Assembly: GCF_025232395.1 (NCBI RefSeq) | Contig: NZ_CP065938.1 | Location: 744,001-808,000, forward strand | Reading direction: 5' to 3' | DNA from: Taurinivorans muris | Lineage (GTDB): Bacteria; Desulfobacterota; Desulfovibrionia; Desulfovibrionales; Desulfovibrionaceae | DNA length: 64,000 nucleotides | In this document: positions 1-41,841 of the stretch, piece after piece | Layout of the letters: every line of letters begins with the position of its first letter | Position numbering within the stretch: position 1 is the first letter of the stretch | Position numbers and translations under genes: made by a program | Notes under the pieces: generated by a model | Databases searched by the model: none | What the model saw: the letters and a program-made list of their open reading frames with translations, nothing else | Told to the model about the DNA's origin: nothing

Positions 1-504
1 GCAGAACTCCCGCCGCTTCCCAAAGCAGTTGAACGAATTACAGGATTACTGAAATTGCTCACACTAACTAAACAGTTTTTACCTGCCGCCGGTTCGGCAC
101 TGATAAATGCCCAGCCATTTGCAGGAGCGTCATAAAATGCTCCATTCCAAGTAGATCCGTCGCTTAGAACAGGAAGATTGATAGTTATATATTTCTTTGT
201 AGCTGGCATACCAATTCCTGCAAGATAACTGTCCGTCAATTTCCTTTTGGTTTGAGGCATGGCGGGGATTTTAGAACTATCGAATTGAACATTGAACGGA
301 AATTCCGCATTGTCAGGGTTTTCCGTAATTACGCAGGTTGTGTTATCCGCATACTTGACATTCTCCCCGAAAATTTCAGTTGCCATGTTTTCGGGCATCC
401 TGATTGCCCCGAGCTTTTCCCAAGCTTCGCCGTCCGTTTCGTTATCCACATTCAAAATCGCCGGCGCGCCGTTCGCTATATATATATATATAGGATTTGC
501 CCAT
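1..504 (-). CDS. Putative tail fibre protein, partial (C-terminus off the left edge)
   Basis: An open frame of 168 codons starts at ATG 504 behind a clear AAAGGAG ribosome site and runs off the window. Its first ~85 residues match those of the next gene (536-1132), including MPENMA, EIFG, YADNTTC and NAEFPFNVQFD; after a shared YLAG-GMP segment the two diverge. It is the last visible gene of the tail operon, after gpH-like and a paralogous fibre gene, which suggests a receptor-binding or fibre role. Residues 5-10 (YIYIYI) are encoded by eight TA units, so the frame is exposed to slippage. No family is recognised with certainty. Confidence 0.75.
477..492. repeat. (TA)8 dinucleotide repeat near the start of the fibre gene
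   Basis: Eight uninterrupted TA units lie in codons 5-10 of the minus-strand fibre gene that starts at 504. Gain or loss of one unit would shift the frame a few residues after the start. Such tracts in 5' coding ends of surface genes are classic phase-variation sites; that this one varies is inference. Confidence 0.85.
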
Positions 505-535
505 TTCTCACTCCTTTGTTTATTGTTGTTTCAAA

Positions 536-1132
536 TCAAATTTCGCCTTCAGCGTAAATAAATCTTCCAATAGGACTATTCAGGTTTTGAATATAAAATT
601 CACAGCCATATCCTTTTTTGATCGGCAGAAAACAGTCGTGCCAAGCTTGAATTTCCGTATGGTCATGCCCCTCGGCTGAATAAATAGCATTTTTATTTTC
701 ATCCAAAATATGTAATCCTAAAATTCCTGTTGTTTTATAATTCACTTTAGTAGCACAAACATGGATGTAACCATTGGCAGGAGCCGTATAAACAAAACCA
801 CTATACGGAGTAAACCGAATAAATTTATTGCTTGGCATACCAAGCCCTGCAAGATAATTTTCCGTCAATTTCCTTGTTGTTTGCGGTTTTGCCATAATTT
901 TCGAGGCGTCAAATTGCACATTGAACGGAAATTCCGCATTACCTGAATTTTCCGTGATTATGCAGGTCGTGTTATCCGCGTATCTGGTGTTATTTCCGAA
1001 AATCTCATTTGCCATGTTCTCAGGCATTTTAATCGCCTGCAACGCTTCAAAATTTGCCATATCACGAGCATTATCAATATTGAACAGCACAGGAGTATTG
1101 TTCACTTCTTTTATATACGTTGCCGTATTCAT
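536..1132 (-). CDS. Putative tail fibre / tail-associated protein, paralogue of the leftmost gene
   Basis: 198 residues, start ATG 1132 behind GAGG. The N-terminal ~85 residues are shared with the gene at 1-504 and the C-terminal half is unrelated, with a shape common in exchangeable fibre tips (YSGFVYTAPANGYIHV, ending GRFIYAEGEI). The arrangement suggests duplication of a conserved attachment part followed by divergence or exchange of the tip. It lies downstream of gpH-like and is co-oriented. The function is inferred from position and mosaicism only. Confidence 0.75.
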   Translation of the reverse strand: MNTATYIKEVNNTPVLFNIDNARDMANFEALQAIKMPENMANEIFGNNTRYADNTTCIITENSGNAEFPFNVQFDASKIMAKPQTTRKLTENYLAGLGMPSNKFIRFTPYSGFVYTAPANGYIHVCATKVNYKTTGILGLHILDENKNAIYSAEGHDHTEIQAWHDCFLPIKKGYGCEFYIQNLNSPIGRFIYAEGEI

Positions 1133-1189: not shown

Positions 1190-2038
1190 TCACTGGTAAG
1201 CATAAATCGTTGTTGCGGTTGAAATTTCAAAAACTTCCAAAATCAGCACGTCATTTTTGGGAATAATTGTCACAACGCCGGAACTTTTTACGCCGGTCAG
1301 CTCGTCAACCCCGAGCAAAACCGGCGTGCGCTCTTCCTGCACCGCCCCGTCTTTGGGCATGAAATACGCCCTTGCGTTGATGTTGCTTGGACTGTGCAGA
1401 TAAAGAAAAAGCGGATTATCGGGTGTCACAAGCAAAGTCCAGCCGCCCGCCGTGCTGCGGCTGCCGATGAGCGTCAGCTGAGCGGATAACGCAATATCGG
1501 CTTTCAGTTTTTCAACAATCTCTTCGTGGGCGTTCGGGTCGCTGTCGTGTTCGCCAAGCATGCGCTCCACAAATTCGCGCGTTGCGAGAACTTGGGCGGG
1601 GTCTATAAAAATTTCAATGGTTCCTGCGTCCAAAACACGAATAATCATACGCACCAGCAAATCAGTCGCCGCGCCTGACTGAAGATCGGTTTTTTCGGTC
1701 AGCGGCGTATTGCCGACAGCGAACATGGTTCCGTCTTCAAAAAACAGTCCCACTTCCCGAATAAAAAATCCACCGACGACTTGAGGAATAAGAAGCTCCG
1801 CCGTAAATTCGCCTTCAACGTCTTTATTGATGACAATGTCGTTGATTTGCCCTCTGTACGTTTCATGCACAAGGCTTGTCATGGTTGAATCAGGTTCAAT
1901 GGGCTGCCCGCTGCCGTCACCCACCGCCATATGCGTAAGCTTTATGCTTGTGCCCGTGGCATGCGCCATTGCCACCGCATTCCGCCCGAGATTTGTAGTG
2001 ACTGTTTTAAATTTCTGAGAATTGGATAATTGCGTCAT
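1190..2038 (-). CDS. Phage tail fibre protein, gpH-like N-terminal domain
   Basis: 282 residues from ATG 2038, chosen because AGGAAAGGAG precedes it; a longer frame upstream has no such site. The N-terminus (MTQLSNSQKFKTVTT, then MAVGDGSG and GGFFIREVGLFFEDGTM) is typical of the P2/Mu-type tail fibre N-terminal domain that binds the baseplate. The C-terminal part after about residue 190 is short for a fibre and may be only the proximal segment. It follows gpI, the standard P2 order J-I-H. Confidence 0.85.
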   Translation of the reverse strand: MTQLSNSQKFKTVTTNLGRNAVAMAHATGTSIKLTHMAVGDGSGQPIEPDSTMTSLVHETYRGQINDIVINKDVEGEFTAELLIPQVVGGFFIREVGLFFEDGTMFAVGNTPLTEKTDLQSGAATDLLVRMIIRVLDAGTIEIFIDPAQVLATREFVERMLGEHDSDPNAHEEIVEKLKADIALSAQLTLIGSRSTAGGWTLLVTPDNPLFLYLHSPSNINARAYFMPKDGAVQEERTPVLLGVDELTGVKSSGVVTIIPKNDVLILEVFEISTATTIYAYQ

Positions 2039-2067: not shown

Positions 2068-2982
2068 CTATTTTGCATACACTATGCGAATAATCGCTCC
2101 GCGCTGCTGTTCTTCCGCACTTGGCAGGATGGACAAAATGCTTTCCGTATGCATGGCTTGTACCTGCCAACTTTGATTTTCTTTCGCACCAAGTTCTGTA
2201 ACAAGTTCAGGCTCAATAATCATGATATTTGCGATTGCCGTACAAAACCCGTATTTCGTTTCACCCTGCGAACCTATGGCAACGGTTATTCCGTCGCAAT
2301 GGGAACGCAGGCTTTTTGTTGTTTCAACAATCCTTTTCGCCCGCAAGACATGGTCGAACAAAAGCTCTTCGCCAAGCACCGTGAGTTCCGCCTTGAAATG
2401 GTAAGGACTGCCGTTATAATCAGCCTCAAACCATTCCTCTCCATGACGCTCGGTCAAGCATCCTGCCTGACACTCGCTCTCGCTTGCGAAAAGCGTGGTT
2501 TTCGCTTCGCTCGCACAGCGTGGCTCCGCACTTCCTGTGCTATTATAATCCGTTTCAAACCATTCTTTTATCCGAAGTTCCGTGTCTTGCAGGGCTGCCT
2601 CGACAGCTCGTTTTACCGCCCATTTCGTGCCTTTTTTACGGTGAATTTGGATACTTGCTTTCACCATTTCAAGCTTTTCCCGATAATTTTTCGCTATATC
2701 GTAATCGTCAACATGGAATTGCCACGCAAGCAGGTCGAGCAGGTTTTCCTCCAAAGGACGATAGCCCCCGAGCGAGGCTATTCTTTGCAAAACTTCACTT
2801 GCATTTTCTGAAATCCCATCCGTATCGAAAAGCCTTGAAAGCAAGAGCAAGCCTGCGATGCGGGCTGTGCTGTCCGAAAGCTGCTGCTCAATGCCGGCAA
2901 GGCTTGCCTGCATGCTTTCATCATTTCGTATACTTGGCGGGAGTACATCGGATAACGGCGTATCGGAAAGAAATTTGCTCAT
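2068..2982 (-). CDS. I: Baseplate/tail protein I (gpI family) with an in-frame insertion
   Basis: 304 residues. The gpI family closes the baseplate between gpJ and the fibre. Typical family sequence is visible (FLSDTPLSDVLPPSIRND, LGGYRPLEENLLDLLAWQFHVDDYD, KKGTKWAVKRAVEAAL). The phrase EWFE-DYN occurs twice, 43 codons apart, flanking a Cys- and Ser-rich stretch encoded by palindromic element E2. Without the insert the length would be near 260. It starts 3 bases after the gpJ stop. Whether the insert is tolerated in the folded protein is unknown; the frame is kept. Confidence 0.9.
   Translation of the reverse strand: MSKFLSDTPLSDVLPPSIRNDESMQASLAGIEQQLSDSTARIAGLLLLSRLFDTDGISENASEVLQRIASLGGYRPLEENLLDLLAWQFHVDDYDIAKNYREKLEMVKASIQIHRKKGTKWAVKRAVEAALQDTELRIKEWFETDYNSTGSAEPRCASEAKTTLFASESECQAGCLTERHGEEWFEADYNGSPYHFKAELTVLGEELLFDHVLRAKRIVETTKSLRSHCDGITVAIGSQGETKYGFCTAIANIMIIEPELVTELGAKENQSWQVQAMHTESILSILPSAEEQQRGAIIRIVYAK
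2414..2565 (+). repeat. Palindromic element E2 inserted in frame in gpI, with flanking duplication
   Basis: A 23-bp near-identical direct repeat (2414-2436 and 2543-2565, starting TTATAATC and ending CAAACCATTC) brackets about 106 bp. Offset between copies is 129 bp, exactly 43 codons. The body holds three hairpins: 2453-2471 (loop ATCCT, one mismatch), GCGAAAA-GCGTGG-TTTTCGC, and GCAC-TTCCT-GTGC at 2528-2540. On the mRNA strand the first and third loops read CAGGATG and CAGGAAG. Confidence 0.8.
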
Positions 2983-2984
2983 TT

Positions 2985-4109
2985 TTACTCAACCTCGACC
3001 CCTCCGAAAGTCACCTGCACATTGGTTTCTTTGGCTATTTGAGTTTGCTCAATTTTTTCAAAAGCAGGGCTTGTTATTTCCACGCGCTTCGCCCCTGCCT
3101 GCATGATAAGCCGCGTCAGTTCGCTTGGATTGATGTCCCGTCCTGGCTTTTCTTTCTGCCACAAGACATAGTTTTCAACGGCTTTGTTCACAGCCGATTG
3201 AATAAGGGCGTACTGCGCACTGTTTTTTTGTTCCAAAAACCACGTGCAGGCAATTTCATACTCCACAATATCGGGGGCTGAAACCTGCACAAAATCCGTC
3301 AGAGGCCGCACATCTTCCGCTGACAGATAATTCTGCACAAGCTCAATCATGGCGCTGTTCGGAAGTTCTCCGCCTTTCAGCACAAAACGGATGTCCACAA
3401 TTCCGGGCGTGGGGCTTGTGGCGGTGACGGCTGAAATTTCGCTGCTTGCGTTTTTGGTTTGCGCAACGTAGCTTTCCATGCTTCCCGCGACTGTGAACGT
3501 TTCCGGAGCAAGGCGTATCCGCTCCCGAAGGTGTTCGTCGTCTTCCGTTTCATCACCGTTTGTCACGTCTTCGGAATTTTCAACAACCGTCACATAGGGC
3601 AGGGGGTCGACAATTTCGCTTATTTGCCCTTGGCGCAGTCCGTTGGCTTTTTCATTGCCAAGACTGCATTCCGCCAAAATATCCGTATTTGTTTCCCCTG
3701 CCGCAAGAACGCCGTTTTCAAGGGTTTGGAAAATAACCTCGCCGTCCTTGGTTGCGGCGCGCGTGCCTTTGGGAATGCTGACGTCAAAGCCGAGCGCCTC
3801 GGACAGACCGAATTTAAGCAGCGTCTTTGCAGGCTTCGCTTCCTGTCGTTTCACGCCCATCAGCTCGCCCAAATGATCCAAATGCAAACCCGAAGCATAT
3901 GCCAATAAATTTTGCTTGGCTGCGTAATCAATCACCGCATTTTGCACGGAGAGCGTATAGGCAAGGGATTTCAGAAACAGACGCACGGGGTCGGCAGGGT
4001 ACAGGGTTGTTCCTGCCAGTTCCTCATAGCGTTTGATGATATTGTTTTCCGTTTCCTGCGGGGTTCTTCCGCTTTCCGCGGTTAAAAATGAAAAATCATC
4101 GGAAATCAT
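2985..4109 (-). CDS. J: Baseplate assembly protein J
   Basis: 374 residues. Start ATG 4109 is preferred over the upstream GTG because GTGAGGAA lies 8-10 bases before it. The family builds the baseplate periphery of contractile tails. Recognisable parts are the N-terminal YPADPVRLFLKSLAYTLSVQ, the central LRERIRLAPETFTVAGS, and a C-terminal end with AGAKRVEI. Its start overlaps the original 3' end of gpW (frame ending EYAHDFR), which shows the ancestral W-J overlap that element E3 later disrupted. Confidence 0.92.
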   Translation of the reverse strand: MISDDFSFLTAESGRTPQETENNIIKRYEELAGTTLYPADPVRLFLKSLAYTLSVQNAVIDYAAKQNLLAYASGLHLDHLGELMGVKRQEAKPAKTLLKFGLSEALGFDVSIPKGTRAATKDGEVIFQTLENGVLAAGETNTDILAECSLGNEKANGLRQGQISEIVDPLPYVTVVENSEDVTNGDETEDDEHLRERIRLAPETFTVAGSMESYVAQTKNASSEISAVTATSPTPGIVDIRFVLKGGELPNSAMIELVQNYLSAEDVRPLTDFVQVSAPDIVEYEIACTWFLEQKNSAQYALIQSAVNKAVENYVLWQKEKPGRDINPSELTRLIMQAGAKRVEITSPAFEKIEQTQIAKETNVQVTFGGVEVE

Positions 4110-4114
4110 GGGCG

Positions 4115-4342
4115 TATTCCTCACGGATGACCTTTACGATAACGTTTCGGAGCTTACGTCCTGTAAGCTCACTGACTGTCGCTTGCAATTTATGCGAAAA
4201 TTGCTTCGCTCCCTCTATCTCTGCTGTCCATTTGCGTAAAGTTCGCAAGCTCACTAACGCAAACAGCTTTGCTGCCTTCGGTGGCGCGAGGCACGCACAT
4301 CCTGTGCTTTCATGAAATAAATTCATTTTTATATTCCTCACG
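4115..4342 (+). repeat. Palindromic element E3 inserted at the gpW 3' end
   Basis: Copies of TATTCCTCACG at 4115-4125 and 4332-4342 mark a duplicated gpW C-terminus: one copy encodes IREEYKNEFIS, the other IREEYAHDFR. Between them lie an 8-bp perfect stem GAGCTTAC-GTCCT-GTAAGCTC (4150-4170), GCAATTT-ATGCGA-AAATTGC, and GCAC-ATCCT-GTGC (4295-4307). The stretch is longer than E2 and E4 and is open in a minus-strand frame (4096-4350) that I read as a by-product of the insertion, not a gene. Confidence 0.75.
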
Positions 4343-4639
4343 AATTTCAAAGGTTATTTTCGGAAACAGCTTGCCGTTCAGATTGAATTGATTTTCAAAA
4401 TCAATGCCCGTCACCTTTATACGCGGGATATATTTTTCAAGCTGTGTAACCAGTTCCGCCACAATAAGCGGTCTCGCCTCGTTTATGGGGCTGTCGATAA
4501 AATCCCACGAAACGCCGAAATCACGATCAAGGGGAACCGTGCCTTTGCGCGTTGATAAAAGCGTATTGATTTCCTGATACAGCCCTTGCAAACCTTTCGC
4601 CCCGATTTGTATGGCTTTTTTATTATGCAGATATTCCAT
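4310..4639 (-). CDS. W: Baseplate wedge protein W (gp25-like)
   Basis: 109 residues with the gp25/gpW pattern: TVPLDRDFGVSWDFIDSPI, then EARPLIVAELVTQLEKYIPRI. The protein joins tube and baseplate wedges. It lies between U and J as expected for a P2-like tail module. The last residues come from a duplicated 3' end created by element E3; the older 3' end, overlapping gpJ, remains at about 4096-4130. Confidence 0.9.
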   Translation of the reverse strand: MEYLHNKKAIQIGAKGLQGLYQEINTLLSTRKGTVPLDRDFGVSWDFIDSPINEARPLIVAELVTQLEKYIPRIKVTGIDFENQFNLNGKLFPKITFEIREEYKNEFIS

Positions 4640-4651
4640 GCTAACGCCGCC

Positions 4652-5044
4652 TTAATGGTATTCTTTCAAAGACACAGACAAATCCATTCTTGTTATAAGA
4701 TTGCCAAGTATTTCCCTGTCTTTTTCGGAAATATCTCTTATGACAAAATTACCCAGGTACTTCGTGCCGATGACAAGGGCGAAGGCATTACCTGTTTTCG
4801 CCATTGCGGCAAGCTCGTCCCTTTGTTTGGAGCAGTCTTTCGGCAGCGGGTTCAGCCCACGGTCAAGGACCATGTCAAAGGTGATTTCTTCCAAAGCCTC
4901 ACCGGCAAATTGCAGATACGGTTTGCCTTTTACCACTTCATGCTCTAAAAAATTATAGTTTCTCTTGCGTGCAAGATTTTTAAATGTCGTAACATCAAAA
5001 GAACTGGTGCGAAAAAGAAAAGTGCCAAGACTTCCAACCAACAT
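4652..5044 (-). CDS. U: Tail protein U (P2 gpU family)
   Basis: 130 residues. The sequence follows the gpU family: LGTFLFRTSSFD at the start, then YLQFAGEALEEITFDMVLDRG, FALVIGTKYLGNFVIRDI. gpU is a tail terminator or completion protein in P2-like phages. It starts just left of cassette island A; the boundary repeat lies at once upstream, so gpU is the first core gene after the cargo. In P2 it sits between T and D, so its place after V/PAAR here may be a rearrangement. Confidence 0.85.
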   Translation of the reverse strand: MLVGSLGTFLFRTSSFDVTTFKNLARKRNYNFLEHEVVKGKPYLQFAGEALEEITFDMVLDRGLNPLPKDCSKQRDELAAMAKTGNAFALVIGTKYLGNFVIRDISEKDREILGNLITRMDLSVSLKEYH

Positions 5045-5217: not shown

Positions 5218-5631
5218 CTATTTCATAAGAGTGATCAAATAATAACTTATTGCTAAAATCATATAAGTAATTATTACGCCTAATGGACTCAATAAGATAC
5301 TGTTTACAAAATATAAACAACATTTATTGTGCTTAGTTTGATTTTTCCAAAAATTATATGTAACTTTAATTGATAGATATAAATATATTATTCCTATTAA
5401 AGTAGGTATAAAATATTTTATATCTACCTGATAAAAATCATAATATTCTTTTGCGTTAATTAATCCATTGATGAAAAAGGAATAAATACCTTCATAACAA
5501 GCCATGATACACTGTATATAACTTTCAGACCTATGAAGTATATTCTTTAACAAACCAAACAATAAAATATAAGGCAAAAAAATTAAAGAAAAAGACAAAA
5601 AAATATGAAATTTTTTATTTTGTGTAGTCAT
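5218..5631 (-). CDS. Putative class A immunity membrane protein I1
   Basis: 137 residues with about four hydrophobic segments (FLSFSLIFLPYILLFGLL; FFINGLI; FIPTLIGIIYLYLSI; LSPLGVIITYMILAIS). It starts 13 bases after the T1 stop with no strong ribosome site, which suggests translational coupling. The N-terminus KKFHIFLSFSLIFLPYI is shared with I4; I6 and I8 have the related IFHI pattern. Every class A toxin is followed by such a gene, so I infer immunity acting in the membrane. No family name is assigned. Confidence 0.75.
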   Translation of the reverse strand: MTTQNKKFHIFLSFSLIFLPYILLFGLLKNILHRSESYIQCIMACYEGIYSFFINGLINAKEYYDFYQVDIKYFIPTLIGIIYLYLSIKVTYNFWKNQTKHNKCCLYFVNSILLSPLGVIITYMILAISYYLITLMK

Positions 5632-5644
5632 TTAATGAAAAATA

Positions 5645-6751
5645 CTAAATAATTGCAAATACGTCAATTATTTTTTGATTAGATAATACTGTAAAATCAT
5701 TCCCAATTTTATTATATTCTCTCAACTCTCTAAATCTGCCATTCGTCATTAATTCACCATCAATAACTTCATAAATATTCATTTGCTTATCTGCACAATT
5801 CCAATATCCTAAAATATCTTTAAATGGATTTTCAGAACTCTCAAAATTAAATGTATCATGTACAAAACCAGCTATCTGTTCTACCTTAACAGAAAAATTA
5901 TTCTCAAAATATTCAATTTTTCCTTTAGCTAAAAATTTAAACGTAAAACTTCCAAGTGCAACAAATAATCCTGTAAACTGGGTAAAGGCTTCCACAATTA
6001 AATTCCAATCATAAAAATTAATAGAAATATGCTGATAATGATGTTTATCCCATTCTGAAAAAGGAATATTAATAAAATCAAATTCCGTTCTTTTTTCTGC
6101 AATATAGCCCAATTCGTGCAAATATTTTTTTATCTGCTTAATTGCATTTTCATTTAAAATTAGTGTTTCTATTGCATCATTCCATTGTTCTTCAGCTTTT
6201 TCATACGACAACACCCAATCAATATCCACCCAAAAGGGATTGGGATTGTTTTGCGGAACATCATTTGCTTCACCTGCAAGCCATTTATAAAACATATCCC
6301 GCAGATAGTGCCAGCCTATTCTGTCTTTTTCATTGGCTTTATTTCCCATTGCGTCGGCAATCAGCGGCAGGCAGAAGAAAATATCATCTTCTTTTCTTCT
6401 TGTATGCCGTGTAACTGTTTTTTTTAATTCATACCCTGCTTTATTCAAAGCTTTCTCATTCCCGTTGCCAATAATGAAAAAACTATCTCCCTCCGCCACG
6501 GTTCCTCCGCAGCTTATGGGATCGCCTACCCGCCCCACTGCTCGCCCATTGACAAAAAACGAAGGACTGCCGCCTGCGAGTTGTCCTTGATGCGGACTAT
6601 GCACCAAACAACCGTGCGAAGCGTATTTATCGCCAACCAAAACAACGGGCTTGCCGTTGACTAAAAAATTATTTGCACCTTCGATCGCTTCAACCGGGGC
6701 GCAATTATCATGCCCCGTACTTTTATCGCCTTTTCTTGTGATTGCCGGCAT
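5645..6751 (-). CDS. PAAR-domain toxin T1, class A (DUF6402-like C-terminus)
   Basis: 368 residues. Residues 1-95 are a PAAR domain (GDKSTGH, ASHGCLVHSPHQG, VGRVGDPISCGG), the cone that caps VgrG/gpV spikes. Residues ~108-178 are a linker shared by all copies and ending NPNPFWVDIDW. The rest is class A: EKRTEFDFINIPFSEWD, FTGLFVALGSFTFKFLAKG, VHDTFNF, LGYWNC, GNDFTVLS. The VHD-FNF, YW and NDF-VLS pattern resembles DUF6402 as I remember it, which I cannot verify here. GGGAGTAAACT precedes the ATG. I1 follows. A spike-delivered toxin is inference. Confidence 0.85.
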   Translation of the reverse strand: MPAITRKGDKSTGHDNCAPVEAIEGANNFLVNGKPVVLVGDKYASHGCLVHSPHQGQLAGGSPSFFVNGRAVGRVGDPISCGGTVAEGDSFFIIGNGNEKALNKAGYELKKTVTRHTRRKEDDIFFCLPLIADAMGNKANEKDRIGWHYLRDMFYKWLAGEANDVPQNNPNPFWVDIDWVLSYEKAEEQWNDAIETLILNENAIKQIKKYLHELGYIAEKRTEFDFINIPFSEWDKHHYQHISINFYDWNLIVEAFTQFTGLFVALGSFTFKFLAKGKIEYFENNFSVKVEQIAGFVHDTFNFESSENPFKDILGYWNCADKQMNIYEVIDGELMTNGRFRELREYNKIGNDFTVLSNQKIIDVFAII

Positions 6752-6783
6752 AGTTTACTCCCATAAGTGGTTTACTACTGCAT

Positions 6784-6893
6784 TAGCAAAGTTTTATTTT
6801 CCTGTCGTGGACAATATGGACGTAGTGGAGAATATGGACAAAAATTTTTGAGCTTTATTCAATCAAAAAGGTGCGTTACGCACCTTTTTGAGA
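6784..6893. repeat. Cassette boundary R2
   Basis: TTAGCAAAGTTTTATTTTCC, then three 9-bp GGAC/GGAG units (6807-6839), spacer, and an 11-bp perfect terminator hairpin with TTA loop at 6865-6889. On the minus strand it ends the I2 transcript and begins the T1 leader. A promoter may lie in the tandem repeat, but none is clear. Confidence 0.9.
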
Positions 6894-6921
6894 GAGAAAG
6901 ATTTAATACAAAGTTATTTTA

Positions 6922-7269
6922 TTATCTTCCACTACCAATAAAACCCAAAACCTCCCAAAAAAAGAAACCTGGTATTCCCCACACAATAATATAGAAAAAA
7001 TAAAAGAAAAAAACCGTTATGTTATTTTGTTTTTTGAAAAATGCTATTGTTACAATGAAAGTTATTATTAATAATTCCCAAAGGACACTATTTATTTTAT
7101 ATCCTAATAAATCAATATATTCACAAAAGAAACTACCTATACCACCCAAAAAATATAAAAAGAAATTATAGTGTTCATTTCTTGCAATATATAAATAAAT
7201 AAAAAAAGATAAAAAAATAAAAAATTGTATTAATAAAACGTTACGGATATGAAATATTATGTTGTTCAT
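6922..7269 (-). CDS. Putative class B immunity membrane protein I2
   Basis: 115 residues from the internal ATG at 7269 (MNNIIFHIRN), preferred because the class B homologue I5 starts at the same place with an 8-base overlap of its toxin stop. Here the overlap with T2 is 29 bases. Three to four hydrophobic segments are visible (FFIFLSFFIYLYI, LWELLIITFIVTIAFF, VFFFYFFYIIVWGIPGFFFW). Identical in sequence to I3 (10021-10368), showing a very recent duplication. The immunity role is inferred from pairing with class B toxins. Confidence 0.7.
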   Translation of the reverse strand: MNNIIFHIRNVLLIQFFIFLSFFIYLYIARNEHYNFFLYFLGGIGSFFCEYIDLLGYKINSVLWELLIITFIVTIAFFKKQNNITVFFFYFFYIIVWGIPGFFFWEVLGFIGSGR

Positions 7270-7947
7270 AGTTATAATTATACATATATTCAACAAAATT
7301 GTCAATTAATTTAGGCTTTGACAACACTAAAAAGTCATTGCCAATTTTATTGTATTCTCTAAAATCCCTAAACTTTGCATTACATATTTTTATATAACTT
7401 TTATTTGTAAAGCCGGGAATAGGACTCACATCTTTTTCCTCACAGCTCCAATAACCTAATGTATCAAACCCAAAAACTGCATCTCCTTCAAAGTTAAATA
7501 AGTCATGAACAAAAATAGCCACTTGTTCAAGAGTAACTTTATATTGATTTTCACCTAAATATTCAATTTTTCCTTTTGGCAAAAAGCGAAACGTAAATGT
7601 TGCTAAGGCTGCAATTATTCCTATTTCAACCAAGTGACGCTCTTCCACATCAAAACGCTGATAATAAAGCTTTTCCCATTCCTGCCACGGGCTATTGATA
7701 AAATCAAATTTTTTATTCTTTTCTTCAAAATACCCCTCACGGGCAAGAATAATATTTAATGATCTAATAGCCTTGTCTGTTTTTGCTTTGAGAGGAAAGG
7801 TAATAGTTAAAAATTCTTTTGGAAAATATCTTAACACCCAATCAATATCCACCCAAAAGGGATTGGGATTATTTTGCGGAACATCATTGGCTTTGCCTGC
7901 AAGCCATTTATAAAACATATCCCGCAGATAATGCCAGCCTATTCTGT
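7241..7947 (-). pseudogene. Class B toxin T2, PAAR domain lost
   Basis: Only the linker end (IGWHYLRDMFYKWLAG) and the class B C-terminus remain (FDFINSPWQEWEK, RFLPKGKIEYL, VHDLFNFEG, LGYWSCEEKD, GNDFLVLS). Upstream of residue ~130 the frame meets a stop. At 7944-7947 the sequence jumps within CTGT from toxin to the leader of another cassette, as expected for a microhomology or short-homology deletion. The longest frame starts at ATG 7918. It could still make a PAAR-less protein or act as a recombination donor. Confidence 0.8.
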
Positions 7948-10020: not shown

Positions 10021-10368
10021 TTATCTTCCACTACCAATAAAACCCAAAACCTCCCAAAAAAAGAAACCTGGTATTCCCCACACAATAATATAGAAAAAAT
10101 AAAAGAAAAAAACCGTTATGTTATTTTGTTTTTTGAAAAATGCTATTGTTACAATGAAAGTTATTATTAATAATTCCCAAAGGACACTATTTATTTTATA
10201 TCCTAATAAATCAATATATTCACAAAAGAAACTACCTATACCACCCAAAAAATATAAAAAGAAATTATAGTGTTCATTTCTTGCAATATATAAATAAATA
10301 AAAAAAGATAAAAAAATAAAAAATTGTATTAATAAAACGTTACGGATATGAAATATTATGTTGTTCAT
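10021..10368 (-). CDS. Putative class B immunity membrane protein I3 (identical to I2)
   Basis: Same 115-residue protein as I2; the surrounding DNA from about 9989 to 10848 matches 6890-7749 base for base as far as I can see. Start placed at 10368 as for I2. It overlaps the T3 stop. The duplication is recent, or the two copies are kept the same by gene conversion. Confidence 0.7.
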   Translation of the reverse strand: MNNIIFHIRNVLLIQFFIFLSFFIYLYIARNEHYNFFLYFLGGIGSFFCEYIDLLGYKINSVLWELLIITFIVTIAFFKKQNNITVFFFYFFYIIVWGIPGFFFWEVLGFIGSGR

Positions 10369-11172
10369 AGTTATAATTATACATATATTCAACAAAATTG
10401 TCAATTAATTTAGGCTTTGACAACACTAAAAAGTCATTGCCAATTTTATTGTATTCTCTAAAATCCCTAAACTTTGCATTACATATTTTTATATAACTTT
10501 TATTTGTAAAGCCGGGAATAGGACTCACATCTTTTTCCTCACAGCTCCAATAACCTAATGTATCAAACCCAAAAACTGCATCTCCTTCAAAGTTAAATAA
10601 GTCATGAACAAAAATAGCCACTTGTTCAAGAGTAACTTTATATTGATTTTCACCTAAATATTCAATTTTTCCTTTTGGCAAAAAGCGAAACGTAAATGTT
10701 GCTAAGGCTGCAATTATTCCTATTTCAACCAAGTGACGCTCTTCCACATCAAAACGCTGATAATAAAGCTTTTCCCATTCCTGCCACGGGCTATTGATAA
10801 AATCAAATTTTTTATTCTTTTCTTCAAAATACCCCTCACGGGCAAGAATAGTATTTAATGAATCAATTGCTCTTGCGGTTGTTGCATTGAGAGGAAAAGT
10901 AATAGTTAAAAATTCTTTTGGAAAATATCTTAGCACCCAATCAATATCCACCCAAAAGGGATTGGGATTGTTTTGCGGCACATCATTTGCTTCACCTGCA
11001 AGCCATTTATAAAACATATCCCGCAGATAATGCCAGCCTATTCTGTCTTTTTCATTGGCTTTATTGCCCATTGCGTCGGCAATCAGCGGCAGGCAGAAGA
11101 AAATATCATCTTCTTTTCTTCTTGTATGCCGTGTTATTATTTCGTTATGCTCACAAAGAAGTTTATTTCTTA
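10340..11172 (-). pseudogene. Class B toxin T3, PAAR domain lost, mosaic
   Basis: The class B C-terminus is the same as T2, but between about 10849 and 10960 the DNA instead follows T5 (28840-28960), so this copy is a mosaic. The upstream part stops in the post-PAAR linker (RNKLLCEHNEI), where a decayed boundary repeat begins. The open frame to 11338 passes through the boundary and an immunity-gene remnant, which is not credible coding sequence. No ribosome site was found for a PAAR-less product. Confidence 0.8.
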
Positions 11173-11175
11173 CTG

Positions 11176-11245
11176 TAAACACTATTGATAAAAAAATTTT
11201 GACTTTAATCAATAAAAAAGGTGTGTTACGCACCTTTTGAAAGAA
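11176..11245. repeat. Cassette boundary R5 (decayed)
   Basis: AAACACTATTGATAAAAAAA resembles the end of the tandem repeat with two changed GGAC units; the terminator GGTGTG-TTA-CGCACC with T-run is at 11216-11238. Confidence 0.75.
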
Positions 11246-11255
11246 TTGGATTTTT

Positions 11256-11340
11256 AATATATTCCTGAGCCGTTTCCGGGCATGGAGGACACAGAAAATA
11301 AAATCCCCCTGTAATGTCCAAATAACAGTATAAAACACAT
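11256..11340 (-). pseudogene. 3' remnant of a class B (I7-type) immunity gene
   Basis: One minus-strand frame ends with SVSSMPGNGSGIY and a stop, the same end as I7 (33987-34520). The rest of that gene and its toxin are gone. The following ~50 bases to 11394 show nothing recognisable. Confidence 0.65.
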
Positions 11341-11394
11341 AAAATGATTACCAACTAAAAAATAAATTATATCTCAATGATAAAATGTATCTTA

Positions 11395-11841
11395 TTAAGA
11401 ACCATAATAAAAATGATTAATATGTTTCAAAATTATCTGAAAAACTATCCATGTCAATATTACCCCTATTGGACTTATCAAAAAACTATTTACCAAATAC
11501 AAACGGCGTTTATTTTGCTTCGTCTGATTTTTCCAAAAATTATACGTCACCTTACTTGATAAATATAAATATATCATTCCCATAAGAGTAGGAAAAAAAC
11601 ACTCTATAATTAATGTATAATATGCACTAAAAAGATAACAATACCCCCAAGCTTCTTCAAATTTAAATAATCCTTCAATAAAAAAATAATATAACATAGC
11701 ATAACAATCTACAATAAGAAACTCATTATAACCATGATAAAAATAAAGAAAAATATTGAAAATTCCTACAAGGATTATATAAGGTAAAAAAATTAAAGAA
11801 AAAGACAAAAAAATATGAAATTTTTTATTTTGTATATTCAT
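11395..11841 (-). CDS. Putative class A immunity membrane protein I4
   Basis: 148 residues, four hydrophobic segments. The first 20 residues are nearly those of I1 (MN-Q-KKFHIFLSFSLIFLPYI), as is the WKNQTK motif near residue 110. The middle differs, a pattern that fits immunity proteins tracking variable toxins. It starts 12 bases after the T4 stop. Confidence 0.75.
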   Translation of the reverse strand: MNIQNKKFHIFLSFSLIFLPYIILVGIFNIFLYFYHGYNEFLIVDCYAMLYYFFIEGLFKFEEAWGYCYLFSAYYTLIIECFFPTLMGMIYLYLSSKVTYNFWKNQTKQNKRRLYLVNSFLISPIGVILTWIVFQIILKHINHFYYGS

Positions 11842-11853
11842 TTGATGAAAATA

Positions 11854-12960
11854 CTAAATAATTGCAGATAGGTCAATTAATTTTTGATTGGATAATACTA
11901 TAAAATCATTTCCAATCTTATTATGCTTTCTAAATATTCTAAATCTTCCATTAGTCATTAATTTGCCATCAATAAATTCATAAATATTCATCTGCCTGTC
12001 TGCGCAGTTCCAATATCCTAAAATATCTTTCGGACGAAATTCTGAAGGTTCAAAATTAAATAAATCATGTACAAAACCTGCTAGCTGTTCTATCTGAACA
12101 GAAAAGTCGTTTTCATGATATTCTATTTTTCCTTTAGCTAAGAACTTGAAAGTAAAACTTCCTAAAGCTACAAACAACCCTGTAAATTGGGTAAAGGCTT
12201 CAACAATTAAATTCCAGTCGTAAAAATCAATAGATATATGCTGATAATGATGTTTGTCCCATTCTGAAAAAGGGATATTGATAAAATCAAATTCCGTTCT
12301 TTTTTCTGCAATATAACCCAATTCTATCAGATGAGATTTTATTTCTTTTATTGCGTTTTCATTTAAAATTAATTCTTCTATAGCCTTATTCCATTGTTCT
12401 TCGGCTTTTTCATAACTTAACACCCAATCAATATCCACCCAAAAGGGATTGGGATTATTTTGCGGCACATCATTTGCTTCACCTGCAAGCCATTTATAAA
12501 ACATATCCCGCAGATAATGCCAGCCTATTCTGTCTTTTTCATTGGCTTTATTGCCCATTGCGTCGGCAATCAGCGGCAGGCAGAAGAAAATATCGTCTTC
12601 TTTTCTTCTTGTATGTCGTGTAACTGTTTTTTTTAATTCATACCCTGCTTTATTCAAAGCTTTCTCATTCCCGTTGCCAATAATGAAAAAACTATCTCCC
12701 TCCGCCACGGTTCCTCCGCAGCTTATGGGATCGCCTACCCGCCCCACGGCACGCCCATTGACAAAAAACGAGGAACTGCCCCCTGCAAGTTGTCCTTGAT
12801 GCGAACTATGCACCAAACAACCGTGCGAAGCGTATTTATCGCCAACCAAAACAACGGGCTTGCCATTGACTAAAAAATTATTTGCGCCTTCGATCGCTTC
12901 AACCGGGGCGCAATTATCATGCCCCGTACTTTTATCGCCTTTTCTTGTGATTGCCGGCAT
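11854..12960 (-). CDS. PAAR-domain toxin T4, class A, directly behind gpV
   Basis: 368 residues, intact PAAR domain, linker and class A C-terminus. It is close to T1 throughout, with differences concentrated in 185-215 and the last 100 residues (EIKSHLIELG, FEPSEFRPKDILGYW). The ATG follows the gpV stop by two bases, and its ribosome site (GAGGGA) is inside the gpV 3' end. This is the arrangement expected for a spike gene and its PAAR tip and is probably the ancestral position of the cargo. Confidence 0.87.
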   Translation of the reverse strand: MPAITRKGDKSTGHDNCAPVEAIEGANNFLVNGKPVVLVGDKYASHGCLVHSSHQGQLAGGSSSFFVNGRAVGRVGDPISCGGTVAEGDSFFIIGNGNEKALNKAGYELKKTVTRHTRRKEDDIFFCLPLIADAMGNKANEKDRIGWHYLRDMFYKWLAGEANDVPQNNPNPFWVDIDWVLSYEKAEEQWNKAIEELILNENAIKEIKSHLIELGYIAEKRTEFDFINIPFSEWDKHHYQHISIDFYDWNLIVEAFTQFTGLFVALGSFTFKFLAKGKIEYHENDFSVQIEQLAGFVHDLFNFEPSEFRPKDILGYWNCADRQMNIYEFIDGKLMTNGRFRIFRKHNKIGNDFIVLSNQKLIDLSAII

Positions 12961-28005: not shown

Positions 28006-28368
28006 TTAATATATTCTCGAACTGTCACTCTGTATGAAAAATACTAAAAAAAGAATTAGATAATATCCCGGACAAGCCCAAACAAAGGTATAAAAAAAAT
28101 AAAATAAAAAAGTTAATGTGTTATTTTGTTTTTTTATAAAGAATATTGTTATAAAAATTGTTAATAATAATAGTGGCCATAAAATAAACTTTAACTCTGA
28201 GTTAAACATATAATAAAAACCTAAGGGAATACCTCTAAAATAACCTAATAAAACTTTAAAAATATTATCGTCATTTGGTAAAATTTTAGATAAAAAAAAG
28301 TTAAAAACTATAATAGTTATAACCTGTATTACTAAACAATTTTTTATAGTGACTAATATTTTATTCAT
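28006..28368 (-). CDS. Putative class B immunity membrane protein I5
   Basis: 120 residues from ATG 28368 (MNKILVTIKN); the start overlaps the T5 stop by 8 bases (ATGAATAA), the neatest toxin-immunity coupling in the array. Hydrophobic segments: VIQVITIIVFNFFL, FILWPLLLLTIFITIFF, TFLFYFFYTFVWACPGYYLILFLVFF. Class B membership by the K-N-(L/V)VIQ N-terminus. Confidence 0.75.
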   Translation of the reverse strand: MNKILVTIKNCLVIQVITIIVFNFFLSKILPNDDNIFKVLLGYFRGIPLGFYYMFNSELKFILWPLLLLTIFITIFFIKKQNNTLTFLFYFFYTFVWACPGYYLILFLVFFIQSDSSRIY

Positions 28369-29440
28369 GGTTATAATCATAAATATATTCAATAAAATTG
28401 TCAATTATTTTAGGATGTGACAACACTAAAAAATCATTACCAATTTTATTATATTCTCTAAATTCTCTAAACTTTGCATTATTCATTGCTTCATAGCGAT
28501 TATTTTTAGGAACACCACTTACATCTTTTTCTTCACAACTCCAATAACCTAAATAATCAAAAAAAAGAGTTCCTTTACCCTCAAAATTAAAGACATCATG
28601 CACAAAAACTGCAACTTGTTCAACGATAATTTTATATTTATTTTCGTCTAAGTATTCAATTTTTCCTTTTGACAAAAAGCGAAAAGTAAAAGTTTCCAAG
28701 GCTGCAATTATTCCTATTTCAACCAAGTGACGCTCTTCCACATCAAAACGCTGATAATAGTATTTTTCCCATTCCTGCCATGGGCTATTGATAAAATCAA
28801 ATTCTTTATTCCGTTTTTCAAAATACCCCTCACGGGTAAGAATAGTATTTAATGAATCAATTGCTCTTGCGGTTGTTGCATTGAGAGGAAAGGTAATAGT
28901 TAAAAATTCTTTTGGAAAATATCTTAGCACCCAATCAATATCCACCCAAAAGGGATTGGGATTATTTTGCGGCACATCATTTGCTTCACCTGCAAGCCAT
29001 TTATAAAACATATCCCGCAGATAATGCCAGCCTATTCTGTCCTTTTCATTAGCTTTATTTCCCATTGCGTCGGCAATCAGCGGCAGACAGAAGAATATAT
29101 CGTCATCCCGTTTTCTGGTGTAACGGGTCAGTATCTCGTTATGCTCACACATAAGCTTATTTCTTAATTGTTCGTTTCCGTTGCCGACTATGAAGTTACT
29201 TGCTCCCTCCGCCACGGTTCCGCCGCAGCTTATGGGGTCGCCCACTCTGCCGACAGGTTTGCCGTTTACAAAAAAGCTAGGACTGCCTTCCGCAAGTTGT
29301 CCCTGATGCGGACTATGCACCAAACAACCGTGCGAAGCGTATTTATCGCCCACCAATACAACGGGCTTGACAGTGAAAGCGACAAAATTATTCCTGTTAG
29401 GAAAGAAATGAGCCTTACAGAAATGGAAAGCGAGGATACC
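28361..29440 (-). pseudogene. Class B toxin T5, N-terminal 35 codons of PAAR replaced
   Basis: The frame is intact from KPVVLVGDK (PAAR residue ~36) to the class B end, but the normal MPAITRKGDK start is missing. Upstream, the frame reads FLVNG, then a 23-codon insert (ILAFHFC...FVAFTV), then the I6 3' end in another frame. So the T5 head was lost in a join with I6, and the boundary repeat between them is gone. No credible start or ribosome site is visible. Confidence 0.8.
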
Positions 29441-29786
29441 ATTGACTAAAAAAGAGGTCCCTGAAAATCATTAATAAAATAATACCGATAATGCCTAACA
29501 GTACACTATTAACCAAATACAACCAAGATAAATTTTTTCTCGTTGGGTGCTTCCAAAATTTTATGGTTCTATGTACAGAAAAGAAGCAAAGAATAATATG
29601 AGTTATTAAAAAATAATACGGTTCAAAATAAGATGAAAAAATAAATTTATAAAGCCTAATTGAGTTTTTGATGCAAAAACCTATATCATAACCAGTAAAA
29701 AGATAACCCAAAAAATTAATAATTATTGGTAAAAAAATCAATATGTATGAAAAAATAATATGAAATATTCTTCTATAACTATTCAT
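29415..29786 (-). CDS. Putative class A immunity membrane protein I6, C-terminus altered
   Basis: 123 residues, about three hydrophobic segments (IIFSYILIFLPIIINFLGYLF, YFLITHIILCFFSV, YLVNSVLLGIIGIILLMIF). The last ~15 residues (SQWYPRFPFL) come from the join with T5, so the original end is lost; it may still function. Starts 20 bases after the T6 stop. Confidence 0.7.
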   Translation of the reverse strand: MNSYRRIFHIIFSYILIFLPIIINFLGYLFTGYDIGFCIKNSIRLYKFIFSSYFEPYYFLITHIILCFFSVHRTIKFWKHPTRKNLSWLYLVNSVLLGIIGIILLMIFRDLFFSQWYPRFPFL

Positions 29787-29805
29787 AATTATTATTTATT
29801 ATTTG

Positions 29806-30903
29806 TTATTTGTTATTTGTTATGTCAATCAATTTTTGCTTTGATAATACAACAAAATCGTTGCCCAGTTTATTATGTTCTCTAAAATTTCTAAATCTTG
29901 CATTACTCATCATTTGACCATCAATAAATTCATAAATATTCATTTGTTTATCTGCACAATTCCAAAAGCCTAAAAAATCTCCATAATAATCTTCATCAAA
30001 ATTGAAGACATCATGCACAAAGCCTGCAACTTGTTCTATTTGTATGTCAAAACCATTTTCAGTATACAGAATTTTACCTTTGGCTAAAAATTTAAATGTA
30101 AAACTACCAAGAACAACAAATAAGCCAGTAAAGTCATTCCAAAGTTCTTCGATACCAAAATCAGTTATTTTAAAAGAAAGATGCTGATAATGTTCGTTAT
30201 CCCATTCTGAAAAAGGAATATTAATAAAGTCAAATTCTGTTCTTTTTTCTGCAATATAGCCTATTCTTTCAAGTTTGGCTTTTAATCCATTTTGGGCAAC
30301 ATCATTTAAAATTTTCTCGTCTATTGCTTTGTCCCATATTTTTTTTGCATTTTCATAACTCAGCACCCAATCAATATCTACCCAAAAGGGATTGGGATTA
30401 TTTTGCGGAACATCATTGGCTTTGCCTGCAAGCCATTTATAAAACATATCCCGCAGATAATGCCAGCCTATTCTGTCTTTTTCATTGGCTTTATTTCCCA
30501 TTGCATCGGCAATCAGCGGCAGACAGAAGAATATATCGTCATCCCGTTTTCTGGTGTAACGGGTCAGTATCTCGTTATGCTCACACATAAGCTTATTTCT
30601 TAATTGTTCGTTTCCGTTGCCGACTATGAAGTTACTTGCTCCCTCCGCCACGGTTCCGCCGCAGCTTATGGGGTCGCCCACTCTGCCGACAGGTTTGCCG
30701 TTTACGAAAAAGCTAGGACTGCCTTCCGCAAGTTGTCCCTGATGCGGACTATGCACCAAACAACCGTGCGAAGCGTATTTATCGCCCACCAATACAACGG
30801 GCTTGCCGTTGACTAAAAAATTATTTGCACCTTCGACCGCTTCAACCGGGGCGCAGCCGTCATGCCCTGTGCTTTTATCGCCTTTTCTTGTGATTGCCGG
30901 CAT
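29806..30903 (-). CDS. PAAR-domain toxin T6, class A
   Basis: 365 residues from ATG 30903 (MPAITRKGDK); the frame upstream (to 31017) is inside the HTH gene region and is not used. PAAR domain and linker are intact; between them the segment NFIVGNGNEQLRNKLMCEHNEILTRYTRKRDDD differs from T1 and is shared with T5. Class A C-terminus: EKRTEFDFINIPFSEWD, LWNDFTGLFVVLGSFTFKFLAKG, VHDVFNFDED, LGFWNC. I6 follows. Confidence 0.87.
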   Translation of the reverse strand: MPAITRKGDKSTGHDGCAPVEAVEGANNFLVNGKPVVLVGDKYASHGCLVHSPHQGQLAEGSPSFFVNGKPVGRVGDPISCGGTVAEGASNFIVGNGNEQLRNKLMCEHNEILTRYTRKRDDDIFFCLPLIADAMGNKANEKDRIGWHYLRDMFYKWLAGKANDVPQNNPNPFWVDIDWVLSYENAKKIWDKAIDEKILNDVAQNGLKAKLERIGYIAEKRTEFDFINIPFSEWDNEHYQHLSFKITDFGIEELWNDFTGLFVVLGSFTFKFLAKGKILYTENGFDIQIEQVAGFVHDVFNFDEDYYGDFLGFWNCADKQMNIYEFIDGQMMSNARFRNFREHNKLGNDFVVLSKQKLIDITNNK

Positions 30904-30913
30904 AATTTTCTCC

Positions 30914-31099
30914 TTATATTTTTTTCTTTTTGAGATAAGAAAGACAATCTTTTTTATAGACCCTGACACCCTGTTTTTTCCCAAGACGTAACCCCTGCAA
31001 AACGCCCGTATTGACAAGATTATAAAAATAGGAGCGAGAACAGGAAAGTATTGTACAAGCCTGCTTCCAGTTCAACAATTCATTTTCAACGTTACTCAT
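30914..31099 (-). CDS. Small HTH DNA-binding protein (excisionase/HTH_17-like)
   Basis: 61 residues behind AAGGGAGA. NWKQACTILSCSRSYFYNLVNTGVLQG-RLGKKQGVRVYK has the winged HTH pattern of excisionase-like proteins. Close paralogue of the protein at 37806-37994. It sits between TerL and the T6 cassette; both copies adjoin cargo, so they may control it or be relics of a duplicated border. Confidence 0.85.
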   Translation of the reverse strand: MSNVENELLNWKQACTILSCSRSYFYNLVNTGVLQGLRLGKKQGVRVYKKDCLSYLKKKKI

Positions 31100-33986: not shown

Positions 33987-34520
33987 TTAATATATTCCTG
34001 AGCCGTTTCCGGGCATGGAGGACACAGAAAATAAAAAAACAAAATATCCATGATAAGACCATATACCAGCATACAAAAAATAAAATAAAAATATTATCAT
34101 TTTATTTCGCCGGTTAAAAAATAAAAATGTCACTAAAATTGTTAAAAAAACAAAAAAATATAAAAAATATTTTAATTGTGGAAAATTAAATAAATCAATA
34201 TATCCTATTGGTACATATATTAATACTGATAAGAAATGAAATAAAAAATCCTGATTTGATTTAAAAGGAAAATAATATGTTATAATACTGCACAATAGTA
34301 TACTTATCAATTGAACTATTACACACTTTTTTATAATATAAAATTTATTATTCATTAAAGTGTGTTGTTTGGATTCAAACTCAATATGCTGACAAGTATT
34401 ATTTATTAAAACAGTTCGATTTAATTTAAAATTAAACGGAGCAGCTATAATACCATACAATAATAAAGTTATTAACTCTATTATCATACATAATATTGTA
34501 AAAACAAAAATTCTATTCAT
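33987..34520 (-). CDS. Putative class B immunity membrane protein I7, extended
   Basis: 177 residues from ATG 34520, three bases after T7. Residues 1-55 (VFTILCMIIELITLLLYGIIAAPF...) have no counterpart in I2/I5. From MNNKFYIIKK (residue 56, ATG 34355) onward it aligns with class B immunity proteins. It may be a fusion of two immunity genes or a genuine longer variant. Ends SMPGNGSGIY, shared with the remnant at 11256 and related to the I8 end. Confidence 0.7.
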   Translation of the reverse strand: MNRIFVFTILCMIIELITLLLYGIIAAPFNFKLNRTVLINNTCQHIEFESKQHTLMNNKFYIIKKCVIVQLISILLCSIITYYFPFKSNQDFLFHFLSVLIYVPIGYIDLFNFPQLKYFLYFFVFLTILVTFLFFNRRNKMIIFLFYFLYAGIWSYHGYFVFLFSVSSMPGNGSGIY

Positions 34521-34522
34521 AA

Positions 34523-35616
34523 TTACACCGTATGAAAATATTCAAAAGTAATATTTAATTCTTTCAGCTTTGATAATACTAAAAAATCATTGCCTATTTT
34601 ATTGTGTTCTCTAAAATCTCTAAATTTTGCATTACTCATTTTTTTGTAAGTATCATTCTTAGGAACAATACTTACATCTTTTTCTTCACAACTCCAACAG
34701 CCTAAAGTATCAAACAAAAGATTTGCATCACCCTCAAAATTAAAAACATCATGCACAAAAACTGCCACTTGTTCAACAATAATTTTATATTTATTTTCAT
34801 CTAAATATTCAATTTTTCCTTTTGGTAAAAAACGAAATGTAAAAGTTTCTAAAGCTGCAATTATTCCTATTCCTACGAGTTGATATTCTTCGATATCAAC
34901 TCGTTGATAATAATAACGTTCCCACTCTTGCCACAAATTATTAACAAAATCAAATTCATTATTCTGTTTTTCAAAATAGCCTTCACGAGCAAGAATATTA
35001 TTCAGTGAAATAATCGCTTTTTCATTTTTTGCAGCATTAGGAAAATTAACAGATAAAAATTCTTCAGGGAAATAACTTAACACCCAATCAATATCCACCC
35101 AAAAGGGATTGGGATTATTTTGCGGAACATCATTGGCTTTGCCTGCAAGCCATTTATAAAACATATCCCGCAGATAATGCCAGCCTATTCTGTCTTTTTC
35201 ATTGGCTTTATTGCCCATTGCGTCGGCAATCAGCGGCAGGCAAAAGAAAATATCGTCTTCTTTTCTTCTTGTATGCCGTGTAACTGTTTTTTTTAATTCA
35301 TAGCCTGCTTTATTCAACGCCTTTTCATTCCCGTTGCCGATAATGAAAAAACTATCTCCCTCCGCCACGGTTCCGCCGCAGCTTATGGGATCGCCTTACC
35401 CGCCCAACTCCCATTGACAAAAAACGAAGGACTGCCGCCTGAGAGTTGTCCTTGATGCGAACTATGCACCAAACAACCGTGCGAAGCGTATTTATCGCCA
35501 ACCAAAACAACGGGCTTGCCATTGACTAAAAAATTATTTGCACCTTCGATCGCTTCAACCGGGGCGCAGCCGTCATGCCCTGTGCTTTTATCGCCTTTTC
35601 TTGTAATTGCCGGCAT
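34523..35616 (-). pseudogene. PAAR toxin T7, class B, frameshifted after the PAAR core
   Basis: PAAR start ATG 35616 and residues 1-72 are normal. At 35390-35415 an extra T and a 5-base loss (GCTCG missing from the usual CTGCTCGCCC) shift the frame, so it splits into 35383-35616 and 34523-35368. The remainder is a full class B toxin (FDFVNNLWQEWER, RFLPKGKIEYLDE, VHDVFNFEG, GNDFLVLSKL). It is the only class B copy that still has the PAAR start. Confidence 0.85.
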
Positions 35617-35640
35617 AGTTTACTCCCATAAGTGGTTTAC

Positions 35641-35750
35641 TACTGTATTAGCAAAGTTTTATTTTCCTGTCGTGAACGTGGTGGAAGATACGGAGAATAT
35701 GGACAAAAATTTTTAGAATTAAATCAAAAAAAGGGCATTATGCACCTTTT
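35641..35750. repeat. Cassette boundary R10 (degenerate)
   Basis: TTAGCAAAGTTTTATTTTCC, degenerate 9-bp units (GAACGTGGT, GGAAGATAC, GGAGAATAT, GGAC; 35671-35704) and an imperfect terminator (GGGCA-TTA-TGCACC with T-run, 35726-35750). The most diverged full boundary. Confidence 0.8.
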
Positions 35751-35786
35751 GAGAGAGTTGTTTTAACTTTAATCCAAAAAAGATTT

Positions 35787-36185: not shown

Positions 36186-36194
36186 ATTTATAAT

Positions 36195-41765: not shown

Positions 41766-41841
41766 TGGTGGAACCTGCAAGGGTTGAACTTGCGACCAAC
41801 CGGTTATGAGCCGGTAGCTCTACCAACTGAGCTAAGGTTCC
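41766..41841 (-). tRNA. tRNA with anticodon CAU (Met or lysidine-type Ile)
   Basis: 76 nt with encoded CCA (41766-41768 on the minus strand). Acceptor stem GGAACCT/AGGTTCC, D arm GCTC-AGTTGGTA-GAGC, anticodon loop CTCATAA with CAT at 41806-41808, T arm with GTTCAAC. A CAU anticodon is shared by initiator Met, elongator Met and tRNA-Ile2; the A1-like pairs are normal, so it is not initiator. Prophages often integrate at tRNA 3' ends, and the phage genes begin on that side. Confidence 0.95.

Follow-up and report, generated by a model that had tools for sequence, protein, structure and literature searches.

A P2-like prophage in the genome of Taurinivorans muris carries, in the tail operon and adjoining the collar fibre gene, four tandem cassettes for related putative tail-tip proteins, three of which start with a TA dinucleotide tract whose unit number decides, on translation, whether the ATG frame runs on into the tip. 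The best explanation of this arrangement, and in our judgement a probable one, is an array of receptor-binding tips that are phase-variable through TA slippage and that recombine with one another. The window analysed comprises bases 744,001-808,000, that is 64,000 nucleotides, of a genome assembled as a single contig of 2,172,708 bases (G000), and its first five kilobases hold one switchable cassette (A), one constant cassette (slot 1) and the tail genes ahead of them:

1 to 504, minus strand, cut by the window edge: cassette A, putative tail-tip or adhesin gene, OFF as assembled
477 to 492, minus strand: (TA)8 switch tract of cassette A, in the OFF register for the ATG frame
511 to 515, minus strand: AGGAG, Shine-Dalgarno-like, of presumed role
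536 to 1132, minus strand: constant cassette (slot 1), 198 aa, ordinary start, no TA tract, same N-module, different tip
1190 to 2038, minus strand: tail-collar fibre gene, 282 aa, with PF12571 at the N-terminus (E 7e-45)
2068 to 2982, minus strand: P2 gpI-like tail protein (PF09684)
2985 to 4124, minus strand: baseplate J-like protein (PF04865)
4310 to 4639, minus strand: baseplate wedge gp25/W-like protein (phrog_43, E 9e-21; PF04965 just under its cut-off)
4652 to 5044, minus strand: P2 GpU-like tail protein (PF06995)

The eight perfect TA units stand exactly where the first-pass annotation had placed them, and the tract does begin at codon 5 from the minus-strand ATG at 504-502. Six bases ahead of this ATG lies the AGGAG motif, which recurs unchanged in cassettes B and C as well as in the TA slot on a contig from the same species, DONZ01000063.1 (L027). 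On translation, the ATG frame at (TA)8 reads MGKSYIYIYSERRAGDFECG and stops after 20 codons, and the fibre frame (IYIYIANGAPAILNVDN), which continues past the window to G000:C1:743,898 (window position -102), passes through the tract in the other register, with no ATG, GTG or TTG ahead of the tract in that frame at 8 units. The annotation had taken the gene to be intact and had proposed that a change by one unit would truncate the fibre; we reject this direction, as the assembled (TA)8 copy is the one that already ends early and one more unit opens it. Translation with 9 units joins the ATG and fibre frames and, by arithmetic, a loss of two units (to 6) would likewise join them. At 7 or 10 units, as read from the sequence, the ATG frame hits a stop at the tract end and the only in-frame start left to the fibre is a GTG that overlaps the Shine-Dalgarno-like sequence and has no such sequence of its own; weak expression from it may occur, and given this GTG a 10-unit copy would on paper not be strictly silent. 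By translation, then, unit number sets the ON or OFF state of the ATG frame.

A DNA search of the same genome and the reading of an 18-kb stretch placed two further copies of the tract just outside the window, both with the leader of cassette A (ATGGGCAAATCC(TA)n as far as the tract): copy B is (TA)8 and OFF, and copy C is (TA)9 and ON. The order of transcription is collar fibre, slot 1, A (TA8), B (TA8), C (TA9), a 191-aa protein, a 171-aa ORF without assignment and an amidase (phrog_822). One of the three switchable copies, C, is in frame with its ATG, as an intact ORF of 201 aa, beside the one constant copy, and the fibre frames of A and B are open across 198 and 205 codons; one ON among the four switches observed also equals the random-frame expectation. 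Alignment of the four cassette proteins of G000 with the two of DONZ01000063.1 revealed a conserved N-module of about 85 residues and divergent C-termini, which confirms the paralogue at 536-1132 with its different end. The annotation had suggested that this paralogue could take over when the fibre is truncated; the paralogue is tract-free and constant, and the switched copies B and C lie beyond the window edge.

Unit numbers that differ among copies are left unexplained by the idea that A and B are made at a fixed low level, with no switching of the DNA, through ribosomal or transcriptional slippage or through an in-frame TTG at 455 that rescues (TA)8. Long repeats are generally known to provoke slippage and this TTG does lie in frame directly after the tract, yet no Shine-Dalgarno-like sequence is visible ahead of it and a start there would drop the first residues of the N-module, and we give this rescue only the slightest chance of being right.

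The 191-aa protein belongs to phrog_2618, to which PHROG assigns no function, and appears from gene order to occupy the place where a protein for tail-fibre assembly would lie; a DUF4376-like label for it was rejected, as Pfam yielded no such family even at E 10. Scanned for promoters, the array has no candidate site on the minus strand and three on the plus strand, compared with an average of 6.9 in shuffled sequence, and one terminator-like site, on the minus strand, falls inside copy B; a single transcript of the array is therefore our inference.

Elsewhere in the prophage region, capsid-, portal-, terminase- and integrase-like ORFs were recognized by eye, as were PAAR-like ORFs (MPAITRKGDKSTGHD...) at window positions 5218-7918, 10340-12960, 28006-31017 and 33987-37304. 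The latter recur in the prophage, in full or in part, even in the interval that separates portal- from terminase-like genes, and several are followed by a small hydrophobic ORF, possibly forming effector-immunity modules with it. Arrays of TGGACACTA lie at window positions 5100, 7974 and 27910, and a tRNA-Met gene at 41766-41841, just past replication-like prophage ORFs, is a possible attachment site.

A chance origin of the tract was rejected. No other (TA)6 occurs in the 64-kb window, (TA)6 arose in none of 100 dinucleotide shuffles of it, and some 0.0002-0.0003 occurrences of (TA)8 in 2.17 Mb are predicted by a first-order Markov model. By the same type of estimate about 0.005 arrays of (TA) with at least 7 units are expected in the genome, and 27 are present: 15 of 7 units, 11 of 8 and one of 9. 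A control search with alternating strong/weak 14-mers, its scope being GA- and CA-type repeats, with CG-type repeats and homopolymers outside it, brought up only one genuine dinucleotide array as long as these, of the GA type. Among 59 related genomes (TA)7 is present in five, this genome included.

The frames that bear or adjoin these tracts include an amidohydrolase, a protein of the mannose-1-phosphate guanylyltransferase type, a radical SAM protein, two methyltransferases, a family 2 glycosyltransferase and a GGDEF protein; ten proteins, nine of them from such frames, were submitted to Pfam, and three had no match, one of these being the 408-aa fibre discussed below. Several TA tracts lie in or next to likely surface-glycan genes. 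Eight of the 27 tracts fall within some 36 kb (G000:C1:652,801-688,808; L009, L010, L011), where the frames include two methyltransferases and the radical SAM protein, and we infer that this may possibly be a phase-variable surface-glycan region. At G000:C1:494,916 (L018) a (TA)7 splits the gene of the mannose-1-phosphate guanylyltransferase type, the 80 codons ahead of it and the 382 that follow it being in different frames. The GGDEF/GAF gene at G000:C1:1,524,019 (L022) has (TA)8 and its counterpart in a metagenome-assembled genome (MAG) of the same species (L042) has (TA)9, which would put an upstream ATG in frame, the effect being uncertain given a second ATG at the tract end. Within the genus, genome G004 (L047-L064) likewise holds many tracts of at least 7 units, several of them in frames that look by eye glycosyltransferase-like or acyltransferase-like; among the frames listed for it none is fibre-like. 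Both mutS and mutL are present in the T. muris genome, and hypermutability through loss of mismatch repair is therefore not indicated; their presence counts against switching, as it should slow dinucleotide slippage.

A scan of genome contigs for relatives of the array identified one, DONZ01000063.1, a contig of 4,767 bases from MAG UBA8003 of the same species (contig C239 of G059). It carries two cassettes, corresponding to slot 1 and one TA slot with the same leader, and the unit number, whose constancy across isolates would speak against a switch, is 10 in this one other genome versus 8, 8 and 9 in G000. Slot 1 of the contig starts like slot 1 of G000 and ends in the tip of cassette A, from which it differs by 4 nucleotides in 108 codons; the cassette A tip thus occupies a different slot in the MAG, as a chimera. 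After the downstream protein (L027 2100-4767) the contig differs from G000 and has other genes, among them frames that by eye are sheath- or tube-like and, unlike those of G000, lie on the opposite strand; the array may therefore belong to a different phage setting in the MAG, unless the contig is a chimera.

Across the two genomes, with all unit numbers being assembly consensuses in which near-identical leaders could mislead short-read polishing, five of nine comparable tracts differ (8/9, 8/6, 8/9, 8/9 and the fibre tract, scored as different since 10 matches none of 8, 8 and 9), and the remaining four, one at 8 units and three at 7, are the same. The comparison drew on G059 tracts of at least 6 units (14 pieces) in a MAG that is 80% complete, such that shortened or lost tracts would escape it, and covered eight of the 24 non-fibre arrays of G000. 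C42 and C86, which had no counterpart among the loci at hand, the first tract of C116, which matched only paralogous sequence lacking the same tract, and the two pieces of a C238 tract that is broken up by N were left out of the nine. The occurrence of 10 units in an independent MAG, the four other tracts that differ between the genomes and the coexistence of 8- and 9-unit copies within one assembly make it very unlikely that the tract lengths are artefacts of assembly and that all three copies truly have the same in-frame length, even if leaders so alike are difficult to polish and nanopore reads are prone to errors in repeat runs. T. muris LT0009 was assembled from reads that its genome paper gives as Illumina and Nanopore (PMC10507020).

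Between A and B, both OFF, the 77 codons of the N-module gave a dS of 1.07 and a dN of 0.10 (dN/dS 0.10), and all 15 pairwise N-module comparisons gave ratios of 0.09-0.35; comparisons of tips, mostly near synonymous saturation, were left out of the argument. Judging from these ratios, the OFF frames are maintained by purifying selection, of whose apparent strength recombination between slots could be a part-cause. The presence of the A tip in different slots in the two genomes, together with a 300-nt direct repeat in four copies that offers a substrate for recombination, is also in keeping with a scheme in which expression is confined to slot 1 and C, A and B act as silent donors of tips that homologous recombination moves and TA length is of minor importance, and selection acting on recombining tips could explain part of the low dN/dS. 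Silent donors are usually devoid of starts, whereas each OFF copy here retains its ATG, its Shine-Dalgarno-like sequence, its tract and a frame under purifying selection, and unit numbers vary; on balance we find the donor scheme unlikely, if less so than either an assembly artefact or a rescue of (TA)8.

Scans of the cassette proteins against Pfam and PHROG profiles returned no match above chance, the single Pfam row of copy B (E 0.13) being under its cut-off, and their assignment as fibre proteins therefore rests on position and on a shared tip domain. The genome encodes, in another prophage region (L033 1495-2721), a 408-aa main tail fibre that ends in this domain (41% identity across 113 residues of the query) and whose N-terminus matches PHROG tail protein families; no tract of at least 7 TA units lies near its gene in L033. 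An AlphaFold model of copy C had a pLDDT of 67.7 overall and of 73-91 per ten-residue block in residues 101-200. The ten best rows of a structure alignment with this model were C1q domains (Z 7.2-7.5, rmsd 3.1-3.7; the best at Z 7.5, rmsd 3.4 and 95 aligned residues), with which rows of the TNF family and of influenza haemagglutinin, at Z 6.9-7.0 and hence within 1, are tied. Z values under 8 may reflect only a common arrangement, which makes a jelly-roll fold of the C-terminal head no more than a guess. Foldseek placed a GH26 enzyme, influenza haemagglutinin and CBM35 at the top of its PDB matches and a C1q-like Myoviridae protein at row 14 of the viral library.

The ON protein was matched in two of 59 related genomes, one of them its own, and the other match, in G004 of the same genus, is a fusion of the N-module (42% over 77 residues) to a relative of the 191-aa downstream protein (42% over 136 residues), at which no TA tract is visible. 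Such a fusion hints at a role of the N-module in the assembly or docking of tail fibres. Viral contigs searched with the cassette, downstream and collar proteins gave no relatives, and by blastn the array matched none of 50,697 phage records.

Taken as an array of switched and recombining tips, the locus would work as follows. A P2-like prophage of Taurinivorans would hold a tandem bank of four cassettes, bounded on one side by the collar fibre gene and on the other by the gene of a small protein in the assembly position; the N-module would be a plausible docking domain, and the divergent C-terminal head would bind a structure of the host surface. Replication slippage, mostly during lysogeny and within the host chromosome, would change the number of TA units, presumably reversibly, with 9 (or 6) units giving ON through the ATG, 8 giving no start and 7 or 10 leaving the GTG only. 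Lineages of lysogens would in this manner come to release particles with differing sets of tips, and recombination through the conserved parts would shift tips among slots. Phase-variable receptor binding, which the first-pass annotation had offered as a candidate, accordingly stands as the best explanation of three copies in one ON and two OFF states, of the differences in length and of selection on OFF frames; what did not stand is the direction of the switch, cassette A being OFF already. A further step, which we propose tentatively and hold to be somewhat less likely to be right than wrong, is that host and prophage have matched switches built on the same TA repeat: the host would vary surface-related genes and the phage its three-tip bank through the same lysogenic replication machinery, with tips recombining between constant and switched slots and up to eight expression states per lineage, pre-diversified before induction.

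Phage receptor-binding proteins that are phase-variable through polyG tracts were reportedly described in the Campylobacter Fletchervirus by Sorensen et al. in 2021. Two papers put the number of receptor-binding proteins in these phages at up to four, of which two are phase-variable by polyG (PMC11868660, PMC8713573). The likeness lies in phage receptor-binding genes placed under a simple sequence repeat (SSR) and in a host that also phase-varies its surface glycans. The repeat is a TA dinucleotide here and polyG there; the phage is a P2-like prophage in Desulfovibrionaceae, its relative being in a Desulfovibrio-named MAG, as opposed to phages of Campylobacter; and three tandem switched copies share one leader and have interchangeable tips, a system known here from sequence. 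By analogy, the cassette array would work like the Fletchervirus polyG system without being a member of it.

In phages Mu (Gin) and P1, tail-fibre segments are invertible (PMC4987407), and alternative fibre tips within one phage lineage are common to these phages and to the array. Unlike the either/or choice of Mu and P1, the frame switches here would be independent, and several or no copies can be ON. An inversion of this type gained no support, since a search of 6.2 kb at the array for repeats of at least 25 nt, in which shorter or weaker sites would be missed, found one weak inverted pair of 29 nt with 72% complementarity, and the long repeats there are in direct orientation. Phages T2 and T6 are described as having separate proteins bound to their tail fibres (PMC7882524); the cassette proteins may similarly act as a separate fibre-bound protein that sets receptor choice, with docking through the N-module.

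With the SSR phase-variable surface genes of Neisseria, Campylobacter and Haemophilus, the array and the other TA tracts share a frame-shifting repeat in or near the coding sequence, a multiplicity of loci and the prominence of surface genes. They differ from these sets in that the dinucleotide, within a genome-wide search that addressed dinucleotides, is nearly always TA, and in that a prophage gene shares the repeat type with its host. Several traits of SSR contingency loci are found at the array, namely a 5' coding tract not due to chance, a translated frame that depends on unit number, length differences between assemblies and between copies, and an OFF gene that is otherwise intact. A literature search retrieved no paper joining Taurinivorans to phase variation, and the main text of the genome paper mentions neither phase variation nor simple sequence or tandem repeats (PMC10507020).

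If the proposed reading is correct, SSR switching of phage receptor binding would extend from Campylobacter phages to the prophage of a mouse-gut sulfidogen, and particles from a single phage lineage could differ in their attachment proteins. The host, if it is indeed strain LT0009 of T. muris, is in culture and would then provide a tractable system in which to follow whether the switching of the phage keeps step with that of its host in the gut. SSR-switched receptor-binding proteins of phages being already known, what is new here is that the repeat is a dinucleotide, that the phage is a prophage and its host belongs to another group, that the switched copies form a tandem bank under a shared leader, that tips move and that host genes carry the same repeat.
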